Positions 1-53,473 of a stretch of 64,000 nt of DNA are shown here, piece after piece (position 1 is the stretch's first letter; every line of letters begins with the position of its first letter). This DNA is from Enterobacterales bacterium CwR94 (lineage in GTDB: Bacteria > Pseudomonadota > Gammaproteobacteria > Enterobacterales > Enterobacteriaceae), in NCBI GenBank assembly GCA_002837195.1, contig KZ478063.1, forward strand, positions 190,584 through 254,583, given 5' to 3'. The notes under the pieces were generated by a model. It was not told the DNA's origin, made no database searches, and was given only the letters and a program-made list of their open reading frames with translations. A program made the position numbers and the translations under genes.

Positions 1-1922
1 GTATCTGGTACATCGCGGATGCATTCCGTGCCGGGATGTCTGTCGATGGCGTATTTAATCTGACGAACATTGACCGCTGGTTCCTGGTGCAAATCGAAGA
101 GCTGGTGCGTCTGGAAGAGCAGGTCGCACGAGACGGCGCGAAAGGTTTGACGGCAGAATTCTTGCGTACGCTGAAGCGCAAAGGCTTTGCTGACCACCGC
201 CTGGCGGCATTGGCTGGTATTGCCGAGAGCGAAATTCGTAAACTGCGTCAGCAATTTAATCTGCACCCCGTGTACAAGCGCGTAGATACCTGCGCGGCGG
301 AGTTTTCTACCGATACTGCGTACATGTACTCCACCTATGAAGAAGAGTGTGAGTCGAATCCGAACCAGGATCGCGACAAAATCATGGTTCTCGGTGGCGG
401 GCCAAACCGTATCGGCCAGGGTATCGAGTTCGATTACTGCTGCGTGCATGCCGCACTGGCACTGCGTGAAGATGGTTACGAGACTATTATGGTCAACTGT
501 AACCCGGAAACCGTCTCTACGGACTACGACACCTCTGACCGTTTGTACTTTGAGCCGGTTACGCTGGAAGATGTGCTGGAAATCGTACGCATTGAGCAAC
601 CTAAAGGGGTGATTGTGCAGTATGGCGGTCAGACGCCGTTAAAACTGGCGCGTGCCCTTGAAGCGGCCGGTGTGCCGGTAATTGGTACCAGCCCGGATGC
701 CATTGACCGCGCTGAAGACCGCGAACGTTTCCAGCAGGCGGTTGATCGTCTGGGGCTGAAACAGCCTGCCAACGCCACGGTCACCACCATGGAACAGGCC
801 GTAGAAAAAGCCACGTCGATTGGCTATCCGCTGGTGGTGCGTCCTTCCTATGTTCTGGGTGGCCGCGCGATGGAAATCGTCTACGACGAAGTGGATTTGA
901 AGCGTTACTTCCAGACGGCGGTTTCGGTTTCAAACGATGCGCCAGTGCTGCTTGACCGTTTCCTTGACGATGCTGTGGAAGTGGATATTGATGCCATCTG
1001 CGATGGCGAGCGTGTGCTTATCGGCGGCATTATGGAGCACATTGAGCAGGCTGGCGTGCACTCCGGTGACTCAGCATGTTCATTGCCTGCCTACACGCTC
1101 AGCCAGGACATCCAGAATGTGATGCGCCAGCAAGTTGAAAAACTGGCGTTTGAACTCTGCGTGCGGGGTCTGATGAACGTGCAGTTTGCGGTCAAGGACA
1201 ACGAAGTGTACCTGATTGAGGTGAACCCACGTGCCGCACGTACCGTGCCGTTTGTCTCTAAAGCCACCGGCGTGCCATTGGCGAAAGTGGCAGCACGCGT
1301 GATGGCTGGCCGTACGCTGACGCAGCAGGGTGTCACCAAAGAGGTGATTCCACCGTACTACTCGGTGAAAGAAGTGGTGCTGCCGTTTAACAAGTTCCAG
1401 GGTGTTGACCCGATTCTGGGGCCAGAAATGCGCTCCACCGGTGAAGTCATGGGCGTGGGCCGCACTTTTGCAGAAGCCTTCTCTAAAGCCATGCTGGGTG
1501 CTAATGCCATCATGAAGAAGCAGGGGCGTGCGCTGCTGTCAGTCCGTGAAGGCGATAAGAAACGCATTGTGGATCTGGCTACCAAGCTGCAAAAAATGGG
1601 CTTTGAGCTGGATGCGACTCACGGTACCGCTGTCGTGCTGGGTGAAGCGGGCATTAATCCGCGTCTGGTGAACAAGGTACATGAAGGTCGTCCTCACATT
1701 CAGGATCGCCTGAAAAACGGGGAATACAGCTATATCGTGAACACCACCGAAGGCCGTCAGGCCATTGAGGATTCACGCATTATTCGCCGCAGCGCACTGC
1801 AATACAAAGTGCATTATGACACCACCTTGAACGGCGGCTTCGCCACCGTGAACTCCCTGACCGCGGACCCGCGTGAGCAGGTGATTTCCGTGCAAGAGAT
1901 GCATAAGCTGATTAACGGTTAA
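1..1922 (+). CDS. carB: carbamoyl-phosphate synthase large subunit, C-terminal part
   Basis: The frame is already open at the left edge (first full codon at base 3) and stops at TAA 1920-1922, so roughly the last 640 of about 1,073 residues are present. With CarA it makes carbamoyl phosphate from glutamine, bicarbonate and two ATP for arginine and pyrimidine synthesis in the cytosol. Visible in order are the end of the oligomerisation domain ([18 protein letters not shown]), the second ATP-grasp half ([50 protein letters not shown]) and the C-terminal MGS-like allosteric domain ([11 protein letters not shown] onward) that binds UMP and ornithine in the E. coli enzyme. No frameshift or internal stop is seen. 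Truncation is only by the window edge. Confidence 0.98.
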
Positions 1923-1955
1923 TCATGGCGGTAAGCCTGCCGAATGGCAGGCAAA

Positions 1956-1992
1956 TAAAAAACCACTCCCCGTCAGGGTGAGTGGTTTTTTT
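1956..1992. terminator. bidirectional terminator between carB and the LysE-family gene
   Basis: An inverted repeat (ACCACTC ... GAGTGGT) has an A-run on its left and a T-run on its right, so it can end transcription from both convergent genes. Confidence 0.8.
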
Positions 1993-2003
1993 ATGGCATT
2001 GGG

Positions 2004-2618
2004 TTACGACAACGCGACTTTAATCCCTAACGCAACCAACACGCCACCAAGCAGTTTATCAATGATCTTTTGCGCCTTTGCTAATCCGCGACGGACAGGT
2101 GCGCTTTGAATCAGGAATACCAGTGCTGGCCACCAAATCAGCGACAGGCCTAAAATAATACCGGCATACCACAGTTTTTCGCCAAAGCCCGAGTGCATAT
2201 CCAGCACCTGCGTAAACACCGACAGGAAAAACAGTGTGGCTTTCGGATTCAGCAAATTACACAGGTAACCTTGCAGAAAAGCGCGCTTAAGCGTTGTCTC
2301 GCTCTTTTCAACACTGTTGATATCCATTTTGCTGCCACCGCGCGCCAGCAGGGCCTGAACGCCGACATAAATCAGGTAGGCGGCGCCGGCATATTTCAGC
2401 AAGGTAAACAGCCAGGGCGTTGTGGTGATCACCACGGCCAGTCCGGCGACGCAGTAGGTCATGTGCGTTGCCACACCACAAATCACGCCAAAGGAGGTGA
2501 CCAACGCTGTACCTCGCGCGTAGCGTGCCGCATTTTTAATGATCAGAAAAAAATCCGGACCGGGAGAGATCATCCCTAAGGTGGCGATGGTAGCGACAAA
2601 AAGGGTTGTTTCAAGCAT
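2004..2618 (-). CDS. LysE/RhtB-family amino acid exporter
   Basis: A 204-residue, strongly hydrophobic protein with the LysE/RhtB N-terminal signature MISPGPDFFLIIKNAARYA and about six predicted membrane segments. The short polar loop near residues 95-110 and the NLLNPKATLFFLSVF motif are typical of the family. Members export amino acids or homoserine lactones from the cytosol by proton antiport. The substrate cannot be read from sequence, so no symbol is given. It sits alone between carB and folA, where E. coli carries the cai/kef genes, and is divergent from folA across 190 bases. Confidence 0.85.
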   Translation of the reverse strand: MLETTLFVATIATLGMISPGPDFFLIIKNAARYARGTALVTSFGVICGVATHMTYCVAGLAVVITTTPWLFTLLKYAGAAYLIYVGVQALLARGGSKMDINSVEKSETTLKRAFLQGYLCNLLNPKATLFFLSVFTQVLDMHSGFGEKLWYAGIILGLSLIWWPALVFLIQSAPVRRGLAKAQKIIDKLLGGVLVALGIKVALS

Positions 2619-2808
2619 GGTGGCGCTCTTTTTTACACGAAAGGCAGTATTTTAGCATGCTTTGTGCAAGAAATGACGCTGCATATCGCGTGTTACAGAG
2701 GGTTAACAGAAATTGAAAAGACTTTACGCAAAAGCGGGGGTTCGCCCTATCGACGAAAGTTTCACCTTTACGTATTATGGCGCCAATTTTGTTCCAGAAG
2801 AGTCCGAT

Positions 2809-3291
2809 ATGAAAATTAGCCTGATTGCAGCGTTGGCTGCGGATCGCGTTATTGGTATGGAAAACGCGATGCCCTGGCATCTTCCCGCCGATCTTGCCTG
2901 GTTTAAACGCAATACCCTGAAAAAACCGGTGATCATGGGGCGTTTAACCTTTGAATCGATTGGTCGTCCGTTACCTGGGCGTCTGAACATCGTGATCAGC
3001 AGCCAGCCCGGTAACCACGACGGTGTGACCTGGGTGACTTCCGTCAAGGCAGCACTTGAGGCGGCGGCAGATGCAGAAGAAGTGATGGTGATTGGCGGTG
3101 GGCGCGTGTATGAGCAGTTCCTGAAAAAGGCGGATTGCTTGTACCTGACACACATCGATGCCGAAGTGGAAGGCGACACGCAATTCCCGGACTACGAGCC
3201 CGATGAGTGGCATTCCACTTTCAGTGAGTTCCATGATGCTGATAAGGACAACTCACACAGCTACTGTTTTGAAATTTTAGAACGCCGCTAA
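2809..3291 (+). CDS. folA: dihydrofolate reductase
   Basis: The 160-residue protein begins [19 protein letters not shown] and matches E. coli FolA (159 aa) end to end. The ATG at 2809 is chosen because the longer open frame upstream adds residues absent from the family. It reduces dihydrofolate to tetrahydrofolate with NADPH. The catalytic aspartate is Asp28 (Asp27 in E. coli) in PADLAWFKR, and the glycine pair lies in [11 protein letters not shown]. The cofactor-contact segment reads GRLTFESIG where E. coli has GRHTWESIG, so E. coli His45 is Leu46 here. The gene is monocistronic and lies upstream of the PhoX-type gene. Confidence 0.97.
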
Positions 3292-3321
3292 TCCACCTCA
3301 GAGGCGGGAGTGCTCTCGCCT

Positions 3322-3355
3322 CTGTAACATTCCCGTCATTTTCTGCCCTTAGCAT
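3322..3355 (+). promoter_or_regulatory. candidate Pho box and promoter of the PhoX gene
   Basis: Two 7-base direct repeats separated by four bases, CTGTAAC-ATTC-CCGTCAT (3322-3339), match the PhoB box (CTGTCAT-N4-CTGTCAT) closely. A -10-like TAGCAT (3350-3355) follows ten bases later, the usual spacing in PhoB-activated promoters. This would couple the phosphatase to phosphate starvation. PhoB binding is inferred from the pattern and has not been shown. Confidence 0.6.
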
Positions 3356-3392
3356 TGCTACCACTCTGGGAAACCATAAAGGAAGCAATGTC

Positions 3393-5279
3393 ATGAACGA
3401 TAAAATTATCACGCTTAACGCCGATCGCTTGCAGGATCCCCAACGTCGTAAATTGTTAGCGGGCACTGGTGCCGTGGGGCTAACAGGCTTCCTCGGTGGT
3501 GGCCTCTTATCTGTCCCGGTCAATGCGCTGGCTGAAGGCACACCGGCAGGGAGCGCACTGCTGGGCTTTAAAGGCATCACGGCTTCGACGGCCGATGAGA
3601 TGGTGGTGGCCGCGGGATACCGCGCCGATGTACTGATTTCCTGGGGAGAACCCATTATTGAGGGCGCAGCGGCTTTTGATCCCGAAGGCAAAAACAGTGC
3701 CGCGGATCAGGAGAAGCAGTTCGGCGACAACAATGACGGTATGAGCTACTTCCCGATTGACGAAAACCGTGGCCTGTTGGCGATCAACAATGAGTATGTC
3801 AACGAACCCTATTTGTTTGTGCATGGCGGCAGCAAAGCCACCAGTCTGGAAGATGTGCGTAAATCACAAGCTGCACACGGTATTTCCGTGATTGAGATCC
3901 AACGGGGTGAAAATAACCGTTGGGCATTGGTGCGTCCGTCTCGCTACAACCGCCGTATTACCGCCAATACCGAAATGCGTTTTACGGGCCCGGCGGCGGG
4001 TGATAAAGCGCTGCAAACCGCTGCGGATCCCAGTGGCCTGAAAGTCCTTGGCACCTTTGGGAATTGTGCGAACGGGAAAACGCCGTGGGGCACCTATCTG
4101 ACGTGCGAAGAAAACTACGACACCTACTTTGGGACGCAGCAAGCCGATTATGTTGTCACGCCTGCGCAGAAGCGTTACACCCTGAATCCCAGCGAGCCAG
4201 AGCGTAACTGGGCCGATTTTGATGCGCGTTTTGACGTGGCGAAAAACCCCAATGAATTTAACCGCCACGGCTGGATTGTTGAAATCGATCCGATGGATCC
4301 CACTTCGACACCTATCAAGCGCACGGCGCTGGGCCGTTTCAAACATGAAAATGCCGCTGTCACCGTTGCTAAGAATGGGCAATTAGTGGTGTACATGGGT
4401 GACGATGAGCGTGGCGAGTATATCTATAAATTTGTCTCCAATGAGAAAGTGGATAATGCCAACCCGGCAGCCAATAAAACGCTGCTGGATGAGGGCACGC
4501 TGTATGTGGCAGAGTTCACCGGGGATGCTGCGGGCACGCCGTTAAAGGGGATTGGGCGCTGGCTTCCTCTGGTACACGGCCAGCACGGATTGACGGCAGA
4601 AAATGGTTTCCAGAGTCAGGCGGACATTCTTATCAACGCGCGCGGCGCGGCGGACGTGGTGAAGGCGACGCGTATGGATCGCCCCGAGTGGATTGCGGTG
4701 AATCCGCACGATGGTCGTGCTTACTGCACGCTGACCAATAACAGCAAGCGCGGTGATGAAGGGATGCCGGTCAATCCTGCCAACCCGCGTCCGAAAAATA
4801 TCTATGGGCAAATCATCCGCTGGGATGAAAAAGGCGATGCCACTGCGCAGCAATTTAGCTGGGATATTTATGTGCTTTGCGGCAACCCGATTGCCCATCC
4901 TGAAGGAATTTACCGCGGTACACCGAATGTCACGGCGGAGAACACCTTTAACAGCCCGGACGGCCTGGGTTTCGATCACGATGGGCGTCTGTGGATCCTC
5001 ACCGATGGTAAATACAGCAACAAGGGTGATTACCAGGGACAGGGGAATAATCAGTGTCTGGTGGGTGACCCCGTCAGCGGTGAAATTCGCCGCTTTATGG
5101 TGGGGCCAAAATCCTGTGAGTTAACCGGCATTGCGTTTACGCCAGACTACAAGACGATGTTTGTTAACGTGCAACATCCCGGTGAAGAAGGGGATTCGCA
5201 CTTTCCAAATAACAGCCCACGTCCGCGCTCATCGGTCATTATGGTGACGCGTGAAGACGGTGGCGTGATAGGCGCATGA
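3393..5279 (+). CDS. phoX: PhoX-family (DUF839) Tat-exported alkaline phosphatase
   Basis: A 628-residue protein with a twin-arginine signal near residues 15-45 (DPQRRKLLAGTGAVGLTG, then an alanine-rich cleavage region), so it is exported folded to the periplasm. The rest is a PhoX/DUF839 beta-propeller. Hallmarks seen are TCEENYDTYFG, GRFKHENA, MGDDERGEYIYKF, AVNPHDGRAYCTLTNN and NSPDGLGFDHDGRLWILTDG, which in characterised PhoX supply acidic ligands for an iron-calcium centre. It should release phosphate from organic phosphoesters. The start at 3393 has a good ribosome site (AAGGAAG). An upstream Pho-box-like element supports a starvation role. It lies between folA and apaH, where E. coli has no such gene. 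The symbol is by family similarity only. Confidence 0.85.
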   Translation: MNDKIITLNADRLQDPQRRKLLAGTGAVGLTGFLGGGLLSVPVNALAEGTPAGSALLGFKGITASTADEMVVAAGYRADVLISWGEPIIEGAAAFDPEGKNSAADQEKQFGDNNDGMSYFPIDENRGLLAINNEYVNEPYLFVHGGSKATSLEDVRKSQAAHGISVIEIQRGENNRWALVRPSRYNRRITANTEMRFTGPAAGDKALQTAADPSGLKVLGTFGNCANGKTPWGTYLTCEENYDTYFGTQQADYVVTPAQKRYTLNPSEPERNWADFDARFDVAKNPNEFNRHGWIVEIDPMDPTSTPIKRTALGRFKHENAAVTVAKNGQLVVYMGDDERGEYIYKFVSNEKVDNANPAANKTLLDEGTLYVAEFTGDAAGTPLKGIGRWLPLVHGQHGLTAENGFQSQADILINARGAADVVKATRMDRPEWIAVNPHDGRAYCTLTNNSKRGDEGMPVNPANPRPKNIYGQIIRWDEKGDATAQQFSWDIYVLCGNPIAHPEGIYRGTPNVTAENTFNSPDGLGFDHDGRLWILTDGKYSNKGDYQGQGNNQCLVGDPVSGEIRRFMVGPKSCELTGIAFTPDYKTMFVNVQHPGEEGDSHFPNNSPRPRSSVIMVTREDGGVIGA

Positions 5280-5317: not shown

Positions 5318-6147
5318 CACTCTCCGATCGCCATTTCGCGATTGGAAGGCTGTGTGAAATAGGTCATGTCTTCCCAGCGCAGCAAGGTTAAGTTGCCGCC
5401 CCAGCAGCAGCCGGTATCCAGCCCAATGATGCCCTCTGGCGTCCCTTTCCCTTCCAGCGATGCCCAGTGACCAAACACAATGGTGTAATCCTCAGCCACC
5501 GGGCCTGCGATCGTAAACCAGGGTTTTAAAGGCGGTGGGGCGCTTCCCGGCGCTTCTTTGGCAATCATGTCCAGCTGACCATTCGGAAAGCAAAAACGCA
5601 TCCGCGTCAGCGCATTGGTGCTAAAACGCAGCTTAGATAAGCCAGTGAGGGTCGGCGTCCAGTGGTTGGGCATGTCGCCGTACATGGCATCAAGAAACAG
5701 CGGGTAACTGTCACTGGAGAGCACGGCTTCCACTTCACGGGCGCAGGCTTGCGCGGTGTGGATGTCCCACTGCGGCGTGATGCCTGCGTGCGCCATCACC
5801 AGCTTCTTCTCTTCATCCACTTGCAGCAGCGGTTGACGACGTAACCAGTTAATTAACTCATCCGCGTCTTCCGCTTCCAGCAGTGGATTCAGCCGATCTT
5901 TCGGTTTGTTACGGCTGATGCCCGCGTACACCGCCAGCAAGTGTAAATCATGATTCCCTAAAACCAGGCGTACGCAATCACCCAGTGAACGCACATAGCG
6001 CAAAACATCCAGCGAGCCGGGGCCGCGAGCCACTAAATCGCCGGTTAACCACAGCTCATCCTCACGCGGAGAAAACGCCACTTGCTGCAATAAAGCAACA
6101 AGCTCATCGTAGCAACCGTGAACGTCACCTATCAGATATGTACTCAT
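5317..6147 (-). CDS. apaH: symmetrical bis(5'-nucleosyl)-tetraphosphatase
   Basis: A 276-residue metallophosphoesterase close to E. coli ApaH (280 aa). It cleaves diadenosine tetraphosphate (Ap4A) to two ADP and also acts as an Np4-RNA decapping enzyme in E. coli. Metal-binding motifs appear in order: GDVHG (residues 7-11), GDLVARG (36-42), GNHD (64-67) and later HAGI. It is the last gene of the lptD-surA-pdxA-rsmA-apaG-apaH operon, 51 bases after apaG. Confidence 0.97.
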
Positions 6148-6198
6148 GAATGTGTTACCTGATGCAGTCGTTCCCGAACGGGAACGACCTACTGTCTG

Positions 6199-6576
6199 TC
6201 AGTGGATATGGGTTTGAACCGCAAGGCGGAACACGGGAATCTCGACCTGGAAATGCTCACCTTGCAAATCGACCATCACATAATGGCCTTGCATGGTGCC
6301 CATTGGGGTTTCCAGGATTGCACCACTGGTGTATTGAAACTCACCGCCTGGTGCAATGTGCGGCTGTTCGCCCACCACGCCTTCACCTGTGACTTCCGTT
6401 TCCCGACCATTGCCGTTAGTGATCAGCCAATAGCGACTGCGCAGTTGCACAGAGTGTCGCCCGAGATTGCGGATTGTGATGGTGTAAGCAAACACATAAC
6501 GCTCGGTTTCAGGCTCAGATTGCGATTCGATATAGGCACTCTGTACGTGAACGCAGACTCGGGGCTGATCAATCAT
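6199..6576 (-). CDS. apaG: ApaG-domain protein
   Basis: A 125-residue single-domain protein nearly identical in layout to E. coli ApaG (fibronectin-III-like fold), including [22 protein letters not shown] and [11 protein letters not shown]. Its biochemical role is not settled; the family has been linked to cobalt/magnesium efflux phenotypes and to nucleotide binding. It sits three bases after the rsmA stop within the operon, so it is probably translated with rsmA. Confidence 0.95.
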
Positions 6577-6579
6577 GCT

Positions 6580-7401
6580 TTAACTCTCCTGCGGCGCCGG
6601 ATGGGCCGAAAGCCAGTTTGCTAACTGACAGTAATGGGCAACGGAAACATTCTCTGCACGCAAGCCGGTATCAATCCCAAACTCTGCAAACACCTCGTCG
6701 GGAAACAGGTGTCCCAGACTGTTGCGCAGTGTTTTGCGGCGCTTGCCAAAGGCTTCGGTGGTGATACGACTCAGCACGCGAATATCGCCCACGGGATGCG
6801 GCAGCGTTGTATGGGGGACCAAACGCACTACCGCTGAATCGACTTTCGGTGCGGGCGTAAAGGATTCAGGTGGCACTTCCAAAACGGGAATCACCTGACA
6901 GTAATATTGTGCCATCACGGTAAGACGACCATAGGCTTTACTGCCGGGGCCTGCAACCAGACGATTCACGACCTCTTTCTGCAGCATAAAATGCATATCT
7001 TTGATCGCATTAGTATAGCTGAAAAGATGGAACATCAGCGGCGTTGAGATGTTGTACGGTAAGTTACCAAACACACGCAACGACTGGCCTTTTTCTTCTG
7101 CAAGTGCGGCAAAATTAAAGGTCATGGCATCTTGTTGGAAGATGGTTAATTTAGGGCCGAGAAACGGGTGCGTCTGTAGGCGTGCCGCGAGGTCACGGTC
7201 GAGTTCGATAACGGTTAACGCATCAATGCGCTCGCCGACGGGCTCTGTCAATGCACCTAAGCCGGGGCCGATTTCCACCATGGCTTCGCCAATCTGCGGA
7301 TGAATGGCGGAGACAATGCTGTCGATAATGTACTGATCGTTCAGGAAGTTCTGCCCGAAACGTTTTCGGGCAAGGTGCCCCTGATGGACGCGATTATTCA
7401 T
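6580..7401 (-). CDS. rsmA: 16S rRNA dimethyladenosine transferase
   Basis: A 273-residue Rossmann methyltransferase equal in length to E. coli KsgA. It dimethylates A1518 and A1519 in helix 45 of 16S rRNA during late 30S assembly. Visible are RFGQNFL (14-20), the SAM-binding [11 protein letters not shown] (from residue 42), and the catalytic NLPY motif (113-116). The start overlaps the end of pdxA by eight bases, consistent with translational coupling. Confidence 0.97.
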
Positions 7402-8386
7402 GGCTATTGTTAATCATACTGATGGCGAGGTTAAGCGCCGTGATAAAGCTGCCGACATCAGCCAGCCCCTGGCCCGCAAGTTCAAGCGCGGTGCCGTGGT
7501 CGACGGATGTGCGGATAAAAGGCAGGCCGAGCGTGATATTCACTGCGCGACCAAAGCCCTGATATTTTAACACCGGTAAGCCCTGATCGTGATACATCGC
7601 GAGCACAGCATCGGCTTGTTGCAGATATTTAGGCTGAAACAAGGTATCAGCAGGCAACGGGCCGCTGAGTTGCATGCCTTGCGCACGTAATGTCTCTAAC
7701 GCAGGAATAATGGTGTCTATCTCTTCACGCCCCATATGCCCGCCTTCACCCGCATGCGGATTCAGGCCACAGACCAAAATATGGGGAGAGGGAATACCAA
7801 ATTTTTCTCGCAAATCGTGATGGAGAATTGTGATCACTTCGTGCAGCGTCTGCGGCGTGATGGCCGCTGCGACATCCTTTAACGGTAAATGCGTGGTTGC
7901 TAAGGCAACGCGCAACGTTTCCGTCGCTAACATCATCACCACGTTGTCGCAGTGCGCACGCTCGGCGAAAAACTCGGTGTGACCGCTGAAAAAGATCCCA
8001 CCGTCGTTAATCACGCCTTTATGCACCGGGCCCGTCACCAGGGCAGCAAATTCACCACGTAAACAGCCGTCGCAGGCGCGTGCAAGGGTCTCTAATACGT
8101 AGTGACCATTTTCAACGTTGAGCGTCCCCGCGATGGAGGGCGCCGCCAGAGGCACAGGCAACACGGTCAGTGTACCCGCACGCTGCATACAGGCTTCGCT
8201 GCCCGGCTGATAAGGTAGGAGTTGCAGGGGAAGCCCTAATAATTGGGCGCGTGCCAGCAGGAGGTCAGGGTCTGCACAGACCACCAGTTCAATCGGCCAG
8301 TCGCGCTGCGCCAACTGAACGGTGAGGTCAGGACCAATCCCGGCGGGTTCGCCGGGAGTGATAACCAGACGGTGGTTACTGCCCAT
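7394..8386 (-). CDS. pdxA: 4-hydroxythreonine-4-phosphate dehydrogenase
   Basis: A 330-residue enzyme of pyridoxal phosphate synthesis. It oxidises 4-phosphohydroxy-L-threonine with NAD(P), and the product is condensed by PdxJ. Family motifs are [13 protein letters not shown] at the N-terminus, SGHTEFFAE and [15 protein letters not shown] with metal-ligand histidines, and [16 protein letters not shown]. Length and start match E. coli PdxA (329 aa). It overlaps both neighbours (surA by 11 bases, rsmA by 8). Confidence 0.97.
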
Positions 8387-9671
8387 TCTGGCCGAGGATC
8401 TTCACGTAAGCGGAAGCACGTTGTTCCTGCATCCAGGTCTGCGCTTCTTCTGCAAACTTACGGTTGAACAGCAGGCGGTAAGCACGCTCTTTCTGTGCCG
8501 CGTCGGTCTTATCGACCTGGCGCGTATCCATTAACTGAATCAAATGCCAGCCGAAGGAGGAGTGAACCGGGCCACTGGTTTCGCCCTTTTTCAAGCGCAG
8601 CAAGGCATCGCGGAACGCAGGATCATAGACTTCAGGTGAGGTCCAACCCAAGTCACCACCCTGATTCGATGAACCGGGATCCACCGAGAACTGTTTCGCG
8701 GCGTTGGCAAAAGTGATTTTACCGCTGCTGATGTCTGCGGCAATTTCTTGCAGCTTCTGGCGCGCTTGTTCATCGGTTAATACCGGTGACGGCTTCAGCA
8801 AAATATGGCGAGCATGGACTTCAGTGACAGAAATGTTCTGTGCACCTCCGCGCATATCGTTCACTTTCAGGATATGGAAACCTACACCAGAGCGAATCGG
8901 GCCGATGATGTCGCCTTTTTTCGCCGTAGTCAGCGCCTGACCAAAGATACTTGGCAGCTCCTGAATACGTCCCCAACCCATGTTGCCGCCTTTCAGCGCC
9001 TGAGAGTCGGCAGAGTAGGTGATTGCCAGTTTGCCGAAATCTGCGCCATTACGCAGTTCGCCAACCAGCTGTTTCGCCAGGTTTTCCTGATCGTCCACCT
9101 GCTGCTGCGTCGGGTTTTCCGGCAGCGGCAGTAAAATGTGGCTCATGTTCAGTTCTGTCCCGGCGTCATTTTGGCTACCGACCTGAGCGGCCAGCGCATC
9201 AACTTCCTGCGGCAGAATCGTCACGCGACGGCGCACTTCATTGTTGCGCACTTCTGCAATCAGCATCTCTTTGCGGATCTGCTCGCGGTAGTTGTTGTAG
9301 TTGACGCCATCGTAGGCCAGACGGCTGCGCAGTTGATCGGGCGACATGCGGTTTTGCTGGGCAATCCCCGCAATGCCTTGCTCTAACTGCTGATCATTAA
9401 TCTGAATGCCCATCTGCTTTGCCAGTTGTAATTGGATATTATCCATTACCTGACGCTCGATGATTTGGTGGCGCAGGGTATTGTCATCGGGCAGTTGCTG
9501 ACCCGCCGCTTTTGCCTGCGATTTCACCGACTGCATCATGCCAGTGACGTCACTTTCTAATACCACACCGTTATTTACCACCGCGGCGACTTTATCCACC
9601 ACTTGTGGGGCTGCTAACGCGGTGTTGGCCATGACGACCGTACCAAGAATCAGCGTTCTCCAGATCTTCAT
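8376..9671 (-). CDS. surA: periplasmic chaperone and peptidyl-prolyl isomerase SurA
   Basis: A 431-residue secreted protein. The first 20 residues form a Sec signal peptide ending ANTALA before APQVVDKV. The N-terminal chaperone domain is followed by two parvulin domains (around [11 protein letters not shown] and [14 protein letters not shown]) and a short C-terminal helix. SurA escorts unfolded outer-membrane proteins, including LptD, to the Bam complex. It lies 51 bases after lptD in the same operon, which pairs the chaperone with a major client. Confidence 0.97.
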
Positions 9672-44926: not shown

Positions 44927-46573
44927 TTATTTCACGCACTTGGCACACTGTTGCAGGCGAATATTCTCGAAGAAATCCTCACCTTTATCATCCACCAGGA
45001 TGAAAGCTGGGAAATTATCCACTTCGATTTTCCATACGGCTTCCATTCCCAGTTCCGCATACTCCACGCATTCCAAATGCTTGATGCTCTGTTGCGCCAG
45101 AACGGCGGCTGGCCCGCCGATGCTGCCCAAATAGAAACCACCGTGCTTATGACAGGCTTCTGTCACTTGTGCGCTGCGGTTGCCTTTCGCCAGCATCACC
45201 ATACTGCCGCCGTTGGCCTGGAACAGGTCGACGTAGGAGTCCATACGGCCAGCAGTCGTCGGGCCGAGTGAGCCCGAGGCGTAACCTTCCGGCGTTTTAG
45301 CAGGGCCTGCATAATAAACCGGGTGATCCTTCATGTACTGCGGCATGCCTGCGCCGCTGTCGATGCGCTCTTTCAGCTTGGCGTGGGCAATATCGCGCGC
45401 CACGATAATGGTGCCGCTCAGGGACAAGCGCGTTGAAACCGGATATTCCGAAAGCTGGGCCAGAATCTCTTTCATGGGACGATTAAGATTCACATGCACC
45501 ACTTCGCCTTCACCTTGCTGGCGCAGCGCTTCAGGGATAAATTTGCCCGGATTCTGCTCCAGTTTTTCAATCCAAATCCCGTCACGGTTGATTTTGGCTT
45601 TGATATTGCGGTCTGCGGAGCAAGACACGCCCATCCCGACCGGGCAAGAGGCGCCGTGGCGTGGCAGACGTACCACACGAATATCGTGCGCAAAATATTT
45701 GCCGCCGAACTGTGCGCCGAGCCCAATGTCTTGCGCTGCTTTCAGCAGCTCTTTCTCTAATGCGATATCGCGAAACGCCTGGCCGTGTTCGTTGCCTTCA
45801 GTCGGCAGCTCATCATAGTAGTGCGTGGAGGCCAGTTTCACGGTTTTCAGCGTGCTTTCCGCAGAGGTGCCGCCAATCACAAATGCGATATGGTAAGGCG
45901 GGCAGGCTGCGGTACCCAGCGAGCGCATCTTTTCCGTCAGATATTCGGCCAGTTTGCCCGGGGTCAGCAGCGCTTTGGTTTCCTGATACAGATAGGTTTT
46001 ATTGGCGGAGCCGCCGCCCTTGGCGATGCACAGGAACTTATATTCATCGCCGTCCACGCTGTACAGATCGATTTGGGCGGGCAGGTTGGTGCCGGTATTC
46101 ACCTCACGGTACATATCCAGTGCGGCGTTTTGCGAGTAGCGCAGGTTATCTTCGATAAAGGTGTTATAAACGCCTTCTGACAGTGCAGCTTCATCGCCGC
46201 CGCCGGTCCAGACGCGTTGGCCTTTTTTCCCCATGATAATCGCGGTGCCGGTGTCCTGGCAGGTCGGCAGAATGCCTTTCGCCGCGATTTCCGAGTTGCG
46301 CAGGAATTGCAGTGCCACGTAGCGATCGTTTTCGCTGGCCTCTGGATCATCCAGAATCGCAGCAACTTGTTTCTGGTGCGCAGTGCGCAGCATAAACGAC
46401 GCATCGTGGAAGGCCTGCTTAGCCAGCAAGGTCAACGCCTTGGGATCCACCTTCAGCACATCTTGGCCGTCAAACTGGGCGACAGACACGTGCTCACTGC
46501 TGAGCAGGTAGTATTCAGTATCCTCATGGGCAAGAGGAAAGGGGTTCTGATAATGAAAAGGTTTATTCGACAT
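44927..46573 (-). CDS. fumA: class I (iron-sulfur) fumarate hydratase
   Basis: 548 residues, the same length as E. coli FumA/FumB and similar along its full length. It interconverts fumarate and L-malate with an oxygen-sensitive 4Fe-4S cluster. Cluster cysteines are seen in LPTCQDTG (Cys105), TAACPPYH and GVSCSADRN. FumA and FumB cannot be told apart by reading alone. Context (next to a dicarboxylate transporter and opposite a fumarate reductase) points to FumB-like anaerobic use. It is downstream of the transporter gene on the same strand, with a strong hairpin between them. Confidence 0.95.
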
Positions 46574-46750: not shown

Positions 46751-48262
46751 TTAGAACATCATTACCATCCACGGGTAGCCAATCAGCATCATCGCGCACA
46801 GGAAGAACAGGCCAAAGATGGTGCCAAGGCGCCAGTAGTCTGCCGTTGGCAGGTAGCCGCTACCGTAATAAATGGGGCTTGGGCCAGTGCCGTACGGCGT
46901 GATAATGCCCATTACACCCAGAGACGTACACAGCATCAGACAGAACACCGGCATATTAATACCCGGGATAGCCGCCGCGATGGTTAACATCGCAGGTAAC
47001 AGCGCCGTGGTGTGCGCCGTGGTGCTGGCGAACAGGTAGTGCAGTAAGTAGAAGGCGATCATCAGCACGACAGCAGAGACCTGTGGATCGTAGCCCTGCA
47101 GCAAAATCCCCCCCTCTTTACCCAGCCAGGCAATAAAGCCCACGCGCGCCAGGCCATCAGCCAGGGCAACCAGGGTGGCAAACCAGGCAAAGGTATTCCA
47201 GGCGGCTTTATTACTGGTGATGTCGTTCCAGTTCAACACGCCGGTCCACAGCATCAGCACGATAACCAACAGGGCGGCCATGGCCGGTTCAATCCAGGCG
47301 GTGGCGAAGATCCACATCATCAATGCGCAGACCACGAACACCAGCAGCAGGATTTCGTTACGTGAAAGTTTACCGAGTTTTTCCAGTTCGCTGCTGGCCC
47401 AACGCGGCACTTCATCATTCACTTTTACTTCTGGTGGATACAGCCAGTAAGCCATTAACGGCATGATCAGAATCAGCAGCACACCGAGCGGCAGGAAGGC
47501 GAGGAACCACATGCCCCAGGAGATATCAAAGCCGATAACGCTCTTAACCAGCGCCAGTGCCAGCAAATTCGGTGCTAAGGCTGACAAGAACATGGAACTG
47601 GTAATACAGGCCGCAGTAATCGCTACCCACATCAGATAGGAACCGATGCGGCGTGCACTTGGGTCGTTCGGTTTGGAGCCGTACAGCGGCGGCAGGTTAG
47701 CGATAATCGGATAGATGGTGCCGCCACTGCGCGCGGTGTTCGACGGCGTAAAAGGGGCCAGCAGCAGGTCAGCAAAGGTAATCGCGTAGCCCAGTGTCAA
47801 ACTGCGACGGCCGAGGTATTTCACCAGAATCAGCGCCAGGCGGCGGCCAAACTGGGTTTTGTCATAACCGGCGGCAAACATAAAGGCCCCGAAAATCAGC
47901 CACACGGTGGAGTTGCCGAAGCCGCTCACCGCCCATTTAAAGGCTTGGGTAGCGGTTTTAAATTTCGGGTCAGCCAGTTCTGCCGGGCTAAACAGCAGCC
48001 ACTGGCTAAACAAGGCGATCACCACAACGCCGGTCAGGCCAATAACGGCACCGGGCAGCGGTTCGAAGATCAATCCGATAATGACACCCACAAAGATGGC
48101 AAAGAAGTGCCAGGCATGCGGTTCCAGCCCGTCAGGCACGGGGACTAACAGCAGCAGTACCGCCACCAGCACAGGAAGGAACAACATAATCAGGCGTTTT
48201 TTATTACCGGGAGAGGCGGGTAGCGCCTTCGCAGGATCACTGACAGGAGTTGTATTGGTCAT
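46751..48262 (-). CDS. DASS-family dicarboxylate/succinate antiporter (CitT/TtdT-like)
   Basis: A 503-residue polytopic membrane protein of the divalent anion:Na+ symporter (DASS) family, close in layout to E. coli TtdT and CitT. Family motifs are APFTPSNTARSGGTIYPI, the second SNT-like region around FASTTAHTTALLPAM, and the C-terminal YGTGPSPIYYGSGYLPTADY shared with TtdT. CitT and TtdT exchange an external di- or tricarboxylate for internal succinate. The ATG at 48262 is preferred over an upstream TTG; neither has a strong ribosome site. Likely substrates here are malate, fumarate or tartrate (inference from the fumarase and reductase next to it). Confidence 0.9.
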   Translation of the reverse strand: MTNTTPVSDPAKALPASPGNKKRLIMLFLPVLVAVLLLLVPVPDGLEPHAWHFFAIFVGVIIGLIFEPLPGAVIGLTGVVVIALFSQWLLFSPAELADPKFKTATQAFKWAVSGFGNSTVWLIFGAFMFAAGYDKTQFGRRLALILVKYLGRRSLTLGYAITFADLLLAPFTPSNTARSGGTIYPIIANLPPLYGSKPNDPSARRIGSYLMWVAITAACITSSMFLSALAPNLLALALVKSVIGFDISWGMWFLAFLPLGVLLILIMPLMAYWLYPPEVKVNDEVPRWASSELEKLGKLSRNEILLLVFVVCALMMWIFATAWIEPAMAALLVIVLMLWTGVLNWNDITSNKAAWNTFAWFATLVALADGLARVGFIAWLGKEGGILLQGYDPQVSAVVLMIAFYLLHYLFASTTAHTTALLPAMLTIAAAIPGINMPVFCLMLCTSLGVMGIITPYGTGPSPIYYGSGYLPTADYWRLGTIFGLFFLCAMMLIGYPWMVMMF

Positions 48263-48837
48263 AGTATTTGTCTGCAAGTTAGAAGAATCTGGTTGCGCCC
48301 CAATTTCACGATGTCTGACATTCTTATTGCTTTAAAACGGTGCGATCGTGAAATCTCAAAAAATTTGAAGCTCACTAAAAATAGTTATTGGGCTGTTGGT
48401 GATATGATGCGATTTCCAAAACTATTAATTTTGATCTGGATCAAGAAAAATTATATGTGATTTTTATTTTTTAACCTGGTTTCGTCATAAAATTGAAACC
48501 GTGGTTAGGATTTTTCTTCCAAAAAACAGCTTAATGCAACTCTCGCCTCACTTTCAATACGTGGAGGATGTTTAACATATTGATAGTTTAGGTTTTATTT
48601 TGGTTGTGAATGTAAGGTTGCGCTTTGTAGGTTGTTGATTAACAATTAGTAAAACTATTAATAGCATCTTTGCTGAATAATTCCACTTTCGCTTTGTGAT
48701 AACGGCGTCTTGCAAAAATTATCGCATCTTCTACCTAAAAAGTTGTAATATTTACAGCATGTCATCGGACCAATTAGATCCAGAAAAAACGCGTCCGACC
48801 CCCGAATTCATGACTTTTAAATTTGGAGTTGATCCTG
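48263..48837. promoter_or_regulatory. divergent promoter region of the fumarate block
   Basis: A 575-base AT-rich gap between the transporter gene (left) and the reductase gene (right), with no convincing gene. It holds an FNR box (48431-48444), two further short palindromes (48632-48645, TTGTT-GATT-AACAA; 48744-48756, TGTAA-TAT-TTACA) and a 12-base direct repeat AAAACTATTAAT at 48418 and 48651. The leader of the reductase gene would be over 300 bases if transcription starts near the FNR box. Confidence 0.6.
48431..48444. promoter_or_regulatory. FNR-binding site
   Basis: TTGAT-CTGG-ATCAA is a perfect match to the FNR consensus palindrome. A TATTTT (48465-48470) lies at a spacing suitable for an FNR class II promoter reading toward the reductase gene. 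FNR control implies induction without oxygen. Confidence 0.75.
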
Positions 48838-51618
48838 ATGAATAAGCTCACGCCTATCCTGAAGCCCCTGAAATTGCCAAATGGCGCCGTGCTCAAAAAC
48901 CGCTTATTAATGGCCCCCATGACCACCTGTACCGGATTTTATGATGGTACCGTGACCAGCGAGTTAGTGGAGTATTACCGCTCACGGGCAGGCAGCATTG
49001 GTACCGTGATCGTTGAATGCTGCTTTATTGATCCAAAAGGCCCGGCCTTCCCCGGCGCTATTGCTATCGACAGCGATAACAAAATCGCGGGTCTGGCCAA
49101 AATCGCCGATGCCATTAAATCGCAAGGCTCAAAAGCGATTTTGCAGATCTACCACGGTGGTCGCATGGTCGAGCCTGAGCTGATCGGCGGCAGAACGCCA
49201 GTGGCGCCGAGTGCCATTGCGGCACCGCGTGAAGGCGCCACGCAGCCGCAGGCTTTAACGGCAGAAGAAGTGGATGTGATGATCACCAAGTTCGGTGATG
49301 CGGTAAACCGCGCGATCAAAGCCGGCTATGACGGTGTGGAAATTCACGGTGCCAACACCTATTTAATCCAACAATTCTATTCTCCGAACTCTAACCAACG
49401 TGATGATAAGTGGGGCGGCAGCCGCGATAATCGCGCCCGTTTCCCACTGGAAGTGCTCGAAATCACCCATAAAATGGCGCAACGCTTTGCGGATGCTTCT
49501 TTCATCATTGGTTATCGTTTCTCGCCAGAAGAAATTGAAGTTCCCGGTATTCGTTTTGATGACACGATGTACCTGTTGGAAAAACTGGCCGCTCGCGGTC
49601 TGGATTATGTGCACTTCTCTGTGGGCGCTCTGCTGCGCCCCTCCATCGTGGATACACAAGATCCTACGCCCCTGATCACCAAATATATTGCAATGCGTTC
49701 ATCGGAGCTGGCGAAAGTGCCCGTGATTGGCGTGGGCGGCGTGGTCAACAAAGAAGACGCGGAGCGTGCGTTAGAACACGGGTTTGATTTGGTGGCCGTG
49801 GGTAAGGCCTGCATTGCCTATCCGGATTGGGCCGACCGCATCATCAACAATGAACACCTTGATCTCTACATCGACAGTACGCAGCGTGAAGCGCTGACCA
49901 TCCCGGAACCCCTGTGGCGTTTCTCGTTGGTTGACGCCATGATCCGTGATGTCAGTGCGACAGGCCGCAAATATAAAGCCGGTGTGTATCAGGAGAAAGT
50001 GGAAGCCGAAGCGCTCAAGCTGCAGATCAAAGTGACACTTGATACTGACCGTATCACAGATATTCAGATGGTGCCAGATGCCTCGCTGGACGTCGATTTC
50101 ACCACCACCTTTGAAAGTCTGCGTAACCGCATGCTGGTGGCTAACAGTCCACACGTTGATGCGATCACCGGGGCGACAACGCAGAGTGAGGCGCTGAAAA
50201 AAGCCGTTTCCCGCGCCATGTCGACATCAAACAAAGAGTATGTGATTGATGAAGGCGGTAACCCGATGGCACCGCAAAACTACGATGTGGTCGTGGTTGG
50301 CAGCGGTGGTGCGGGTCTGGCGGCAGCCATTCAGGCGCATGATGAAGGCGCACACGTGGTGATTATCGAAAAAATGCCGACCATTGGCGGTAACACCATT
50401 AAGGCCTCCGTGGGGATGAATGCGGCCGAAACGCGCTTTCAGAAAATCAAAGGCATTGAGGATAGTAAAGAGCTGTTCTACGAAGAGACGTTGCGTGGGG
50501 GGAAAAACAAAAACAACCCGGAATTGCTGCGCGAATTTGTTGAACTGGCTCCGGCCGCCATCGACTGGCTGGCAGAACACAATATTGAACTGAATGACAT
50601 CACCATTACTGGCGGCATGAGTATTGACCGTACGCACCGCCCAGCCGATCGCTCTGCCGTGGGGGGCTTCCTGATCAGCGGCCTGGTGAAAAACGTGAAC
50701 CAGCGTGAGATTGAAGTGCTGCTGGAAACCTCAGTGGACGAGATCCTGTTTGAAAACGGGGCCGTTACCGGGGTAAGAGTGATTGACGAATATAACGATA
50801 CCCGCATTTTGAATGCGAAAAGCGTGATTGTGGCAACCGGCGGCTTTAGTGCCAACCGCGAAATGGTCGTGAAGTACCGTCCTGAACTGGATGGGTTTGT
50901 GACCACCAACCACAAAGGCGCCACCGGCGGAGGGATCGCGATTTTGCAGAAAATCGGCGCGGATACCGTCGATATGGGCGAAATTCAAATTCACCCAACG
51001 GTGGAGCAAACCACCTCTTATCTGGTGTCTGAAGCCATTCGCGGCGGTGGGGCGGTGTTAATCAGCCAGGCGGGACAGCGTTTCTATAATGAAATGGAAA
51101 CCCGCGACAAGGTGTCGGCGGAAATCATCGCATTGCCGGAAAAAAGTGCGTGGATCGTGTTTGATGAACAGGTGCGCAAAAATAACAAAGCGGCGGATGA
51201 GTATATCGCCAAAGGTTTCGTTTTAAGCGGCCCAACGCCAGGAGAACTGGCGGTGAAACTCAATATGAATCCGATCGCGCTTGAAGCGTCACTGGATCGC
51301 TACAATGGCTTTGTTGAGCAACAGAATGATGAAGACTTTGGGCGTAAAACAGCGCTGCGTCACCCGCTGAATCAGGGGCCGTTCTATGCGATCCGTATCG
51401 CACCGGGCGTGCACCACACCATGGGCGGCGTCACCATCAATACGGATACCGCCGTGTTGAATGCACAGAAAGAGGTGATTCCGGGCGCGTGGGCGGCGGG
51501 TGAAGTGGTTGGCGGCATTCACGGTGCTAACCGTATTGGCGGTAACGCCGTCGCCGATATCATTATCTTTGGTATTCTGTCTGGCCGTAACGCGGCGAAA
51601 TTTGCGAAGCGAGGATAA
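48838..51618 (+). CDS. soluble NADH-dependent fumarate reductase, OYE-FMN_bind-FAD_binding_2 fusion
   Basis: The 926-residue protein starts at ATG 48838 (MNKLTPILKPLKLPNG), nine bases after a GGAG ribosome site; an earlier in-frame ATG overlaps that site. Domain 1 (about 1-360) is Old-Yellow-Enzyme-like with His170, Asn173 and Tyr175 in HGANTYLIQQF. Domain 2 (about 375-460) is FMN_bind, with the flavinylation motif DAITGAT; Thr447 should carry covalent FMN. Domain 3 (from about 480) is an FAD-binding fumarate reductase domain: GSGGAG, His719 (IHPT), Arg756 (METRD), His860 (HHTMGG) and Arg899 (GANRIGGN), matching catalytic residues of Shewanella flavocytochrome c. No signal peptide or haem motif is seen, so it is cytosolic. 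Klebsiella pneumoniae has a described NADH:fumarate oxidoreductase of this type. Confidence 0.92.
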   Translation: MNKLTPILKPLKLPNGAVLKNRLLMAPMTTCTGFYDGTVTSELVEYYRSRAGSIGTVIVECCFIDPKGPAFPGAIAIDSDNKIAGLAKIADAIKSQGSKAILQIYHGGRMVEPELIGGRTPVAPSAIAAPREGATQPQALTAEEVDVMITKFGDAVNRAIKAGYDGVEIHGANTYLIQQFYSPNSNQRDDKWGGSRDNRARFPLEVLEITHKMAQRFADASFIIGYRFSPEEIEVPGIRFDDTMYLLEKLAARGLDYVHFSVGALLRPSIVDTQDPTPLITKYIAMRSSELAKVPVIGVGGVVNKEDAERALEHGFDLVAVGKACIAYPDWADRIINNEHLDLYIDSTQREALTIPEPLWRFSLVDAMIRDVSATGRKYKAGVYQEKVEAEALKLQIKVTLDTDRITDIQMVPDASLDVDFTTTFESLRNRMLVANSPHVDAITGATTQSEALKKAVSRAMSTSNKEYVIDEGGNPMAPQNYDVVVVGSGGAGLAAAIQAHDEGAHVVIIEKMPTIGGNTIKASVGMNAAETRFQKIKGIEDSKELFYEETLRGGKNKNNPELLREFVELAPAAIDWLAEHNIELNDITITGGMSIDRTHRPADRSAVGGFLISGLVKNVNQREIEVLLETSVDEILFENGAVTGVRVIDEYNDTRILNAKSVIVATGGFSANREMVVKYRPELDGFVTTNHKGATGGGIAILQKIGADTVDMGEIQIHPTVEQTTSYLVSEAIRGGGAVLISQAGQRFYNEMETRDKVSAEIIALPEKSAWIVFDEQVRKNNKAADEYIAKGFVLSGPTPGELAVKLNMNPIALEASLDRYNGFVEQQNDEDFGRKTALRHPLNQGPFYAIRIAPGVHHTMGGVTINTDTAVLNAQKEVIPGAWAAGEVVGGIHGANRIGGNAVADIIIFGILSGRNAAKFAKRG

Positions 51619-51680: not shown

Positions 51681-52655
51681 ATGTCTGTCGAGCAACGCGT
51701 TTATCACTATTCTGCCGTCATGATGGGATCTCCCATTCTCCTGACTCTTTTCGAAAATAATGAATCCCTCGCCCGTGATGTCTTTCGGTTAATCAAACAA
51801 CAGGAAAACCTGTTTACCGTTAACCGTGCACACTCTGAAGTCATGTCAGTTAATCAGGCGGCAGGCGTGCATCCTGTGGTGCTCAGTGCGCCCGTATTTT
51901 CGCTGATCTGCCAGGCAAAGGCGGTCAGCCTGTTAGCCAACAGTTGTTTTAATCTCACTATTGGCCCGTTGGTGAAACGCTGGAAAATTGGTTTTCAGGG
52001 CGACAGGGTGCCGCCAGCCGACGAGATAGCGACACTGCTGGCGATCACCGATCCGCGCCAGGTCGTCGTAGACGTCGACACGCAGTCGGTGTTTCTGACG
52101 CAGCCCGGCATGGAAATTGACCTCGGGGCGATTGCAAAAGGCTATATTGCCGATCGGGTGCGTGATTATCTGCGGCAACAACAGGTGGAAAACGCGCTGA
52201 TCAATCTGGGCGGAAACGTACATACCTTAGGCGGCGTGCAGGCGAGTAACGGTTGGGCGATTGGTTTGAAAAAGCCGTTTGCCGCAGCCGATGCGTTGGT
52301 GGGCGTTATCGAGGTACGGGATAAGTCGGTTGTCACTTCCGGTATCTATGAGCGCTACTTTATGCAGCAGGGGCGTTGCTATCACCATATCCTCGATCCG
52401 AAAACCGGCTACCCACTGGATAATGAATTACTCAGTGTCACCATTATCTCTGATCGCTCCCTCGACGGTGACATCTACACAACATTGCTGTACGGCATGG
52501 GCGTTGTGCAGGGCAGCGCTTATCTGGCGGATAAACCTGATATCGAGGCCATTTTTGTCACGCGCGATCGTGAAGTCATTTTTTCGTCGCAGCGCCAGTT
52601 TGCTTTTCAACTACTGGACACGGACTACCGCTTATCACCATTGCCACAAGCGTGA
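51681..52655 (+). CDS. apbE: cytosolic FAD:protein FMN transferase (ApbE family)
   Basis: A 324-residue ApbE-family enzyme that moves FMN from FAD to a threonine of FMN_bind proteins. Motifs are EIDLGAIAKGYIADRV, LINLGGNVHTLGG, HHILDPKTGYPL and GDIYTTLLYGMG (metal-binding region). Unlike the periplasmic ApbE lipoproteins there is no signal peptide or lipobox, so it acts in the cytosol. Directly downstream of the fusion reductase, whose FMN_bind domain is the obvious target. The ribosome site is GAGG, seven bases from the ATG. Its last 21 bases overlap ygfA on the other strand. Confidence 0.92.
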   Translation: MSVEQRVYHYSAVMMGSPILLTLFENNESLARDVFRLIKQQENLFTVNRAHSEVMSVNQAAGVHPVVLSAPVFSLICQAKAVSLLANSCFNLTIGPLVKRWKIGFQGDRVPPADEIATLLAITDPRQVVVDVDTQSVFLTQPGMEIDLGAIAKGYIADRVRDYLRQQQVENALINLGGNVHTLGGVQASNGWAIGLKKPFAAADALVGVIEVRDKSVVTSGIYERYFMQQGRCYHHILDPKTGYPLDNELLSVTIISDRSLDGDIYTTLLYGMGVVQGSAYLADKPDIEAIFVTRDREVIFSSQRQFAFQLLDTDYRLSPLPQA

Positions 52656-53287: not shown

Positions 53288-53473
53288 TGGAATCTCCGAG
53301 ATGCCGCCGCAGGCTGTAACCCTTGAACCCATGGTTCAAGGTGAATATGCCGTCGCAACCATCAGGCTTCTCGGACGAACCGAGCATGCTCACAGGTTAC
53401 AGAGCGCCACATTCTGTTTTGTTGCAATTATCGGCTCAGGGGACTGGCCCGCTTGCAAACATCTCAGAGAAAT
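53288..53473 (-). ncRNA. ssrS: 6S RNA
   Basis: About 186 bases on the minus strand, starting ATTTCTCTGAGATG and ending GGAGATTCC, both nearly identical to E. coli 6S RNA (184 bases). The closing stem (ATTTCTCTGAGAT with the 3' ATCTCGGAGATT side), the GGGCCAGTCCCCTGAGCCGAT segment and the GCATGCTCGG region around the open bulge are conserved. 6S RNA binds sigma-70 RNA polymerase in stationary phase. Flanked by zapA and ygfA as in E. coli. Confidence 0.95.

Follow-up and report, generated by a model that had tools for sequence, protein, structure and literature searches.

A Klebsiella-type soluble NADH:fumarate reductase predicted beside fumA, a DASS transporter and apbE, with a conserved FNR-type site

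Domains and flavinylation of the predicted enzyme

Bertsova et al. reportedly described a soluble NADH:fumarate reductase (FRD) from Klebsiella pneumoniae in 2020 (FEMS Microbiol Lett 367, fnaa175). Fumarate is also reduced by the membrane complex FrdABCD, which has four subunits and quinol as its donor, and the flavocytochrome c3 of Shewanella (FCc3) carries haems. The available text of one study calls the Klebsiella soluble enzyme 'ETC-independent, NADH-dependent', and reports that Gilliamella has lost frdAB and has a soluble frd, for which horizontal gain is proposed (PMC11325843). According to the accessible part of another, a cytoplasmic ApbE is essential in K. pneumoniae to flavinylate a soluble fumarate reductase (PMC12052999).

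The window, by which we mean the whole 64-kb stretch of DNA analysed here, carries at 48838..51618 of the forward strand an uninterrupted frd reading frame of 926 amino acids and a stop. The program-made list of reading frames starts it at a TTG (48823), 15 bases before the ATG at 48838; a GGAG box stands ahead of this ATG and is invariant in 37 aligned leaders. Pfam places Oxidored_FMN (OYE) at residues 7-338 (E 3.6e-75), FMN_bind at 395-461 (E 3.6e-7) and FAD_binding_2 at 483-905 (E 2.4e-78), each E-value being that of the whole protein. The fusion of three domains claimed for this reading frame by the original prediction is thus borne out, and the OYE-like, FMN_bind and FAD_binding_2 domains stand on one chain as they do in the Klebsiella-type soluble enzyme.

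The likeness to Klebsiella extends from the protein to the neighbouring genes, on which the original prediction is silent. A piece of the K. pneumoniae FRD covering residues 118-924 is identical to the window's protein at 586 of 807 positions (73%), and it covers 20 of the 21 positions that we checked, 19 of them identical and one changed (T444S). In both genomes apbE lies next door, and the divergent side is occupied by a gene for a DASS-family anion transporter (Na_sulph_symp; 46751..48277 in the window, reverse strand) and by fumA, which encodes a class I fumarase of 548 aa (44927..46573, reverse strand). Judged by sequence, frd is an orthologue of the known K. pneumoniae soluble NADH:fumarate reductase, the enzyme itself being known. 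The K. pneumoniae cluster, however, continues after apbE with dcuR and a sensor kinase gene, assigned by NCBIfam to DcuR and to the DcuS/MalK family, whereas in the window apbE is followed by ygfA, so that dcuR-dcuS is not found there. In the K. pneumoniae record used for this comparison (L129, CP125156), fumA (1807-3443) and frd (5669-8421) each match as two overlapping pieces and are absent from the gene table, which is incomplete; this reflects either sequencing error or broken genes.

The motif D-x-x-[S/T]-G-A-[S/T] occurs once in the frd product, as DAITGAT at residues 441-447 (codons at 50158..50178, forward strand), with Thr447 in the last position. Since ApbE modifies the last residue of its flavinylation motif, according to the available text of PMC12052999, Thr447 had been correctly named as the expected covalent FMN site, and we retain it as the predicted one. 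Directly downstream, apbE (51681..52655, forward strand, 324 aa) encodes an FAD:protein FMN transferase by Pfam. A lipobox was not found in its first 40 residues, so this ApbE is probably cytoplasmic; the 3' end of its gene overlaps that of ygfA. We propose that the FMN of the N-terminal OYE-like domain would be reduced by NADH, and that electrons would pass via the FMN on Thr447, attached by the neighbouring ApbE, to the FAD of the C-terminal domain. It is very probable, in our view, that the frd product works in the cytoplasm as an NADH:fumarate reductase of the Klebsiella FRD type, serving an FNR-controlled route and acting as the probable sole fumarate reductase of the cell.

Active-site residues and the choice of substrate

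His719, Arg756, His860 and Arg899 had been put forward as the fumarate-reducing residues, and His170, Asn173 and Tyr175 as kept in the OYE-like domain; each stands in the frd product at the number given. Across 106 aligned rows, made up of the window and 105 loci chosen for their similarity to it (a few of them fetched twice), H719, R756, H860, H170, N173, Y175 and the DAITGAT residues are the same in 106/106 rows, and R899 in 105/106, the remaining row having a gap. E732, R735 and S731 are also the same in every row. This conservation is far beyond chance.

Shewanella FCc3 (PDB 1qjd and others) has a FAD domain and catalytic residues like those of the frd product. The alignment of flavocytochrome c3 fumarate reductase to residues 480-925 of the frd product has an E-value of 1.3e-117, and in it H365, M375, T377, E378, R381 and R402 of FCc3 correspond to H719, L729, S731, E732, R735 and R756. 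H860 and R899 are the counterparts of FCc3 His504 and Arg544, and E732 and R735 are those of its proton path, Glu378/Arg381. The set of fumarate-binding and proton-path residues is complete (H719, S731, E732, R735, R756, H860 and R899), with two conservative changes relative to FCc3, T377 to S731 and M375 to L729. L729 shares with S731 its invariance across the 106 rows, and both are found in the Klebsiella piece. Fumarate would be bound by His719, Ser731, His860 and Arg899, and would become succinate once N5 of the FAD had donated a hydride and Arg756 a proton, the latter supplied through Arg735 and Glu732.

These residues do not all speak for fumarate with the same force. The carboxylate contacts Arg411, His520 and Arg560 of the urocanate reductase UrdA are common to UrdA and fumarate reductases, and UrdA has Tyr373 in place of the His and does not conserve the proton-path Glu, according to the available text of PMC7921117. 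As far as it is described there, UrdA (PDB 6t85 and others) resembles the frd product in joining a FAD_binding_2 domain with the conserved Arg/His/Arg to a covalent-FMN domain, and differs from it in the two other residues: the frd product has H719, and not a Tyr, at the position of FCc3 His365, and the Glu is present. A Vibrio plasmid protein (L130, 3968-6982), whose gene is followed by one for an FMN transferase, has the same domain order and is identical to the frd product at 390 of 914 aligned residues. It shares R756, H860 and R899 with the frd product, but its residues at 719, 732 and 735 are Met, Gly and Pro, and it is perhaps a reductase of another enoate. Because relatives with other substrates keep R756, H860 and R899, the observation that all four residues are kept is weaker evidence than the original prediction made of it. 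Its reading as a true fumarate reductase is supported; these three residues, kept in L130 and UrdA alike, are less telling than His719. From the sequences compared, His719 is the only diagnostic residue among the four, and the combination diagnostic of fumarate reduction is H719 with E732 and R735, all three of which the frd product has; the last two are not among the residues named in the original prediction.

One might suppose that the enzyme has drifted from fumarate to another enoate, such as acrylate, cinnamate, urocanate or similar. The Vibrio protein, where the same architecture and a neighbouring transferase gene go with changes at 719, 732 and 735, lends this some credit, as does the transporter, whose substrate we can only guess at (uptake of a C4-dicarboxylate or of tartrate, or exchange of succinate). 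Against it, H719, S731, E732 and R735 are kept throughout the alignment, two of these positions being those at which UrdA departs; the cluster includes a fumarase; and DcuR/DcuS-like genes are found in 72 of the 80 clusters examined below. We therefore think a drift to another enoate very unlikely and keep fumarate as the substrate. The same comparison points to the residues by which fumarate reductases can be told from look-alikes with this order of domains.

Fumarate reduction elsewhere in the genome and the family

FrdC, a subunit of the membrane enzyme, had no match in the window genome, in a search that did detect it in E. coli as a positive control, although in a draft of 26 contigs such absences carry some risk; nor was it found in the single further genome examined from this genus. 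In this the window genome differs from Gilliamella, which keeps frdCD according to the available text of PMC11325843. When the window genome was searched with the whole protein, the matches besides the protein's own were three of OYE type and two more proteins with a FAD domain, which NCBIfam identifies as L-aspartate oxidase (NadB) and SdhA. With no FrdC, and with SdhA and NadB as the sole FrdA-like proteins, the frd product is probably the only fumarate reductase of the cell.

This is not the rule in the family. In a sample of 119 genomes the soluble enzyme, counted at E <= 1e-200, occurs in 24, of which 18 have FrdC and six do not; it is neither universal nor tied to the loss of FrdC. Among 50 named genomes that have the soluble enzyme, drawn from 80 loci, FrdC was found in 28 and not in 22, the latter including 17 Pantoea and one Erwinia. 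The co-occurrence in both samples is what one would expect if the enzyme were only an electron-balancing accessory to membrane FrdABCD, a role that it may have where both enzymes occur. But FrdC is found in neither the window genome nor the other genome of its genus, and for this organism we hold an accessory role to be slightly less probable still than a change of substrate; a sole fumarate reductase remains our preferred reading.

There is finally the name under which such proteins are filed. The best NCBIfam model for the frd product is 'flavocytochrome c' (621.9 bits, for a cut-off of 542), which matches only from residue 448 to 925, and many public entries for its orthologues are filed under that name. 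A haem-dependent periplasmic fumarate reductase, as this automatic name implies, is hardly credible here, since the 926 residues hold no CXXCH haem motif and only four cysteines, OYE and FMN_bind domains stand where Shewanella FCc3 has its haems, and the N-terminus is not hydrophobic by eye. The database name is thus misleading, and the present analysis gives a protein that databases call flavocytochrome c its correct identity, an enzyme of the Klebsiella FRD type.

The conserved cluster and its regulation

The module of fumA, DASS transporter, frd and apbE is conserved among relatives. We collected 115 FRD loci, among them L001, a truncated copy of the gene in the window. In 78 of the 115, fumA, transporter and apbE are all present; another 22 are orphan pairs of transporter and frd, with neither fumA nor apbE; and the other 15 run into a sequence end or are missing some parts. 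In the window the cluster sits between serA and ygfA-6S RNA-zapA. The 6S RNA gene (ssrS, 53289-53473, reverse strand), found by Rfam between ygfA and zapA, is ordinary, and at the gathering threshold Rfam finds nothing else between 43000 and 56000. Among the loci examined, the place between serA and ygfA is shared only with Pantoea sp. A4 (L010), which the FRD tree also places as sister to the window. Pantoea, where large plasmids often carry the gene, accounts for 74 of the 102 plasmid records matching at E <= 1e-100.

The orphan pairs (L011-L016, L018, L019, L022, L039, L048, L054-L056, L058, L060, L075, L082, L087, L090, L092 and L095) seem as a rule to accompany a second cluster with apbE. 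All 11 orphan genomes searched have two ApbE each, and in all nine of them in which the place of the second was examined, this apbE lies together with a transporter, an FRD and some or all of fumA, the second FRD being 71-77% identical to the window's. A second FRD is also present in G035 and G071; G086, which holds orphan L092, has a single FRD match and is an exception. The FRD tree, a quick one with SH-aLRT support only, nests the orphans at several places inside the clusters of Erwiniaceae, and they look more simply like derived copies. We had considered that the window cluster might be a hybrid, as its FRD and transporter resemble those of the orphan pairs, and this mosaic origin was dropped on account of the nesting.

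The FNR consensus is TTGATN4ATCAA. A perfect, unstranded dyad of this type, TTGATCTGGATCAA, lies at 48431..48444 and is the sole match in the 64-kb window, where 0.08 would be expected; the whole genome has 19 matches, this one included, and encodes an FNR protein 91% identical to that of E. coli. The dyad is perfect in 76 of 81 clusters with transporter and frd in the locus (the window counted once, a few places fetched twice), with 73 distinct flanks. The five others are L042, L045, L059, L078 and L109, of which L109 has the dyad at its usual place with a single mismatch. In the 620 bases searched in each orphan, the perfect dyad was found in 0/22 and a candidate with one mismatch in 12/22. 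Some 31-32 bp to the left of the dyad there is a conserved block which, in our reading, is a -10-like element facing the transporter, and its distance from the dyad fits the class-II FNR spacing rule. With 393 bp between the dyad and the frd ATG, FNR may act chiefly on the side of transporter and fumarase. Action of FNR on frd itself is made less likely by this distance, the spacing towards the transporter and a -10 of frd's own.

FNR may nonetheless act on frd, as -10-like blocks are present on both sides. On that of frd, a conserved element some 85 nt ahead of the start codon is the predicted -10 (48746..48752, forward strand), which reads TAATATT here and TTATATT or TATATT in most relatives. 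It is followed by a predicted leader hairpin (48765..48798, forward strand; arms 48765-48770 and 48793-48798), which has no Rfam match at the gathering threshold. Its arms covary across 43 sequences, near-duplicates and clusters without a recognisable -10 having been excluded: the stem score is 13.1 with own arms versus 11.6 (sd 0.30) with swapped ones, and 0/5000 permutations scored as high, as was the case for the 18 more diverse sequences alone, although relatedness weakens such tests.

Sensor genes were compared in 80 clusters, the window and 79 loci, with L053 dropped for its uncertain start. Both dcuR and dcuS are present in 72, in all of which dcuR adjoins apbE on the opposite strand (in L047 it is in two pieces). 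The eight clusters with neither gene are the window, L010, L078, L089, L042, L045, L059 and L113. Across whole genomes, DcuR at E <= 1e-20 was found in none of the window, L010, L089, L078 and L059 genomes, and those of L042, L045 and L113 have only a paralogue of 29-31% identity.

As we read the alignments, a pair of dyads spaced by about 21 bp is common to relatives and lies upstream of their frd -10. We built a matrix of 46 positions for this block, trained on 36 loci bearing DcuRS, with rows at least 85% alike left out when scoring. The 72 clusters with the sensor score 8.3 to 49.1 and the eight without it at most 0.4, values to be read with caution, as the matrix was trained on the first of these groups and the loci are related. 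In the window the corresponding place (48701..48746, forward strand) is degenerate and scores -6.3. The best of 306 shuffles under the same training rule reaches 8.6, so L117, at 8.3, is not above background. Sensor and block are lost together in four of four independent pairs of the tree (sign test, p 0.125; four pairs cannot reach 0.05), and in two of the four the FNR-type site disappears along with the sensor.

Might this block be the operator of DcuR? Two observations count against it. Whereas 21 of the 22 orphans score at most 2.4, the exception, L092, keeps a good block (20.1) in a genome, G086, where DcuR has no match; and the DcuR site mapped with DNase I at LEE1 in EHEC, as given in the available text of PMC10636207, is not obviously the same motif. 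In the 10.5-kb dcu region of E. coli K-12 (L132) the best match lies upstream of dcuB but scores 2.8, below the 8.6 of the shuffles, and upstream of E. coli dctA there is nothing (-10.9); the case for a DcuR operator of this kind upstream of dcuB in E. coli is suggestive only. The joint absence of DcuR and of the promoter dyad nevertheless makes the block a candidate operator. Our literature search, with most subscription papers outside its reach, found no description of the dcuRS-linked module.

The window cluster has thus kept the FNR-type site and has neither the sensor nor the probable operator; it is probably still controlled by FNR and uncoupled from the sensing of fumarate. Most simply, we infer, sensor and operator were lost when the module came to adjoin ygfA. 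Fumarase A would supply fumarate from malate, with the DASS transporter encoded adjacent to it, and the FNR-controlled module would dispose of NADH as succinate without the membrane. Unlike in most related clusters, fumarate reduction here would not be tied to the DcuS/DcuR sensor.

We find it reasonably likely that the ancestor in these enterobacteria was a movable module with its own DcuS/DcuR, and that the window's lineage lost sensor and operator, leaving a soluble enzyme under FNR only as the sole fumarate reductase. If so, the ancestral module would have comprised the transporter, the fumarase, the NADH:fumarate reductase, its flavinylating enzyme and DcuS/DcuR acting on a tandem-dyad operator; it would have moved between serA and ygfA in a lineage without membrane FrdABCD, and the enzyme left there would be one that does not conserve energy. 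The regulation of the module and the apparent role of its enzyme as sole fumarate reductase are the parts that deserve a second look. Our results suggest that in many Pantoea and some of their neighbours the reduction of fumarate is fermentative rather than respiratory.
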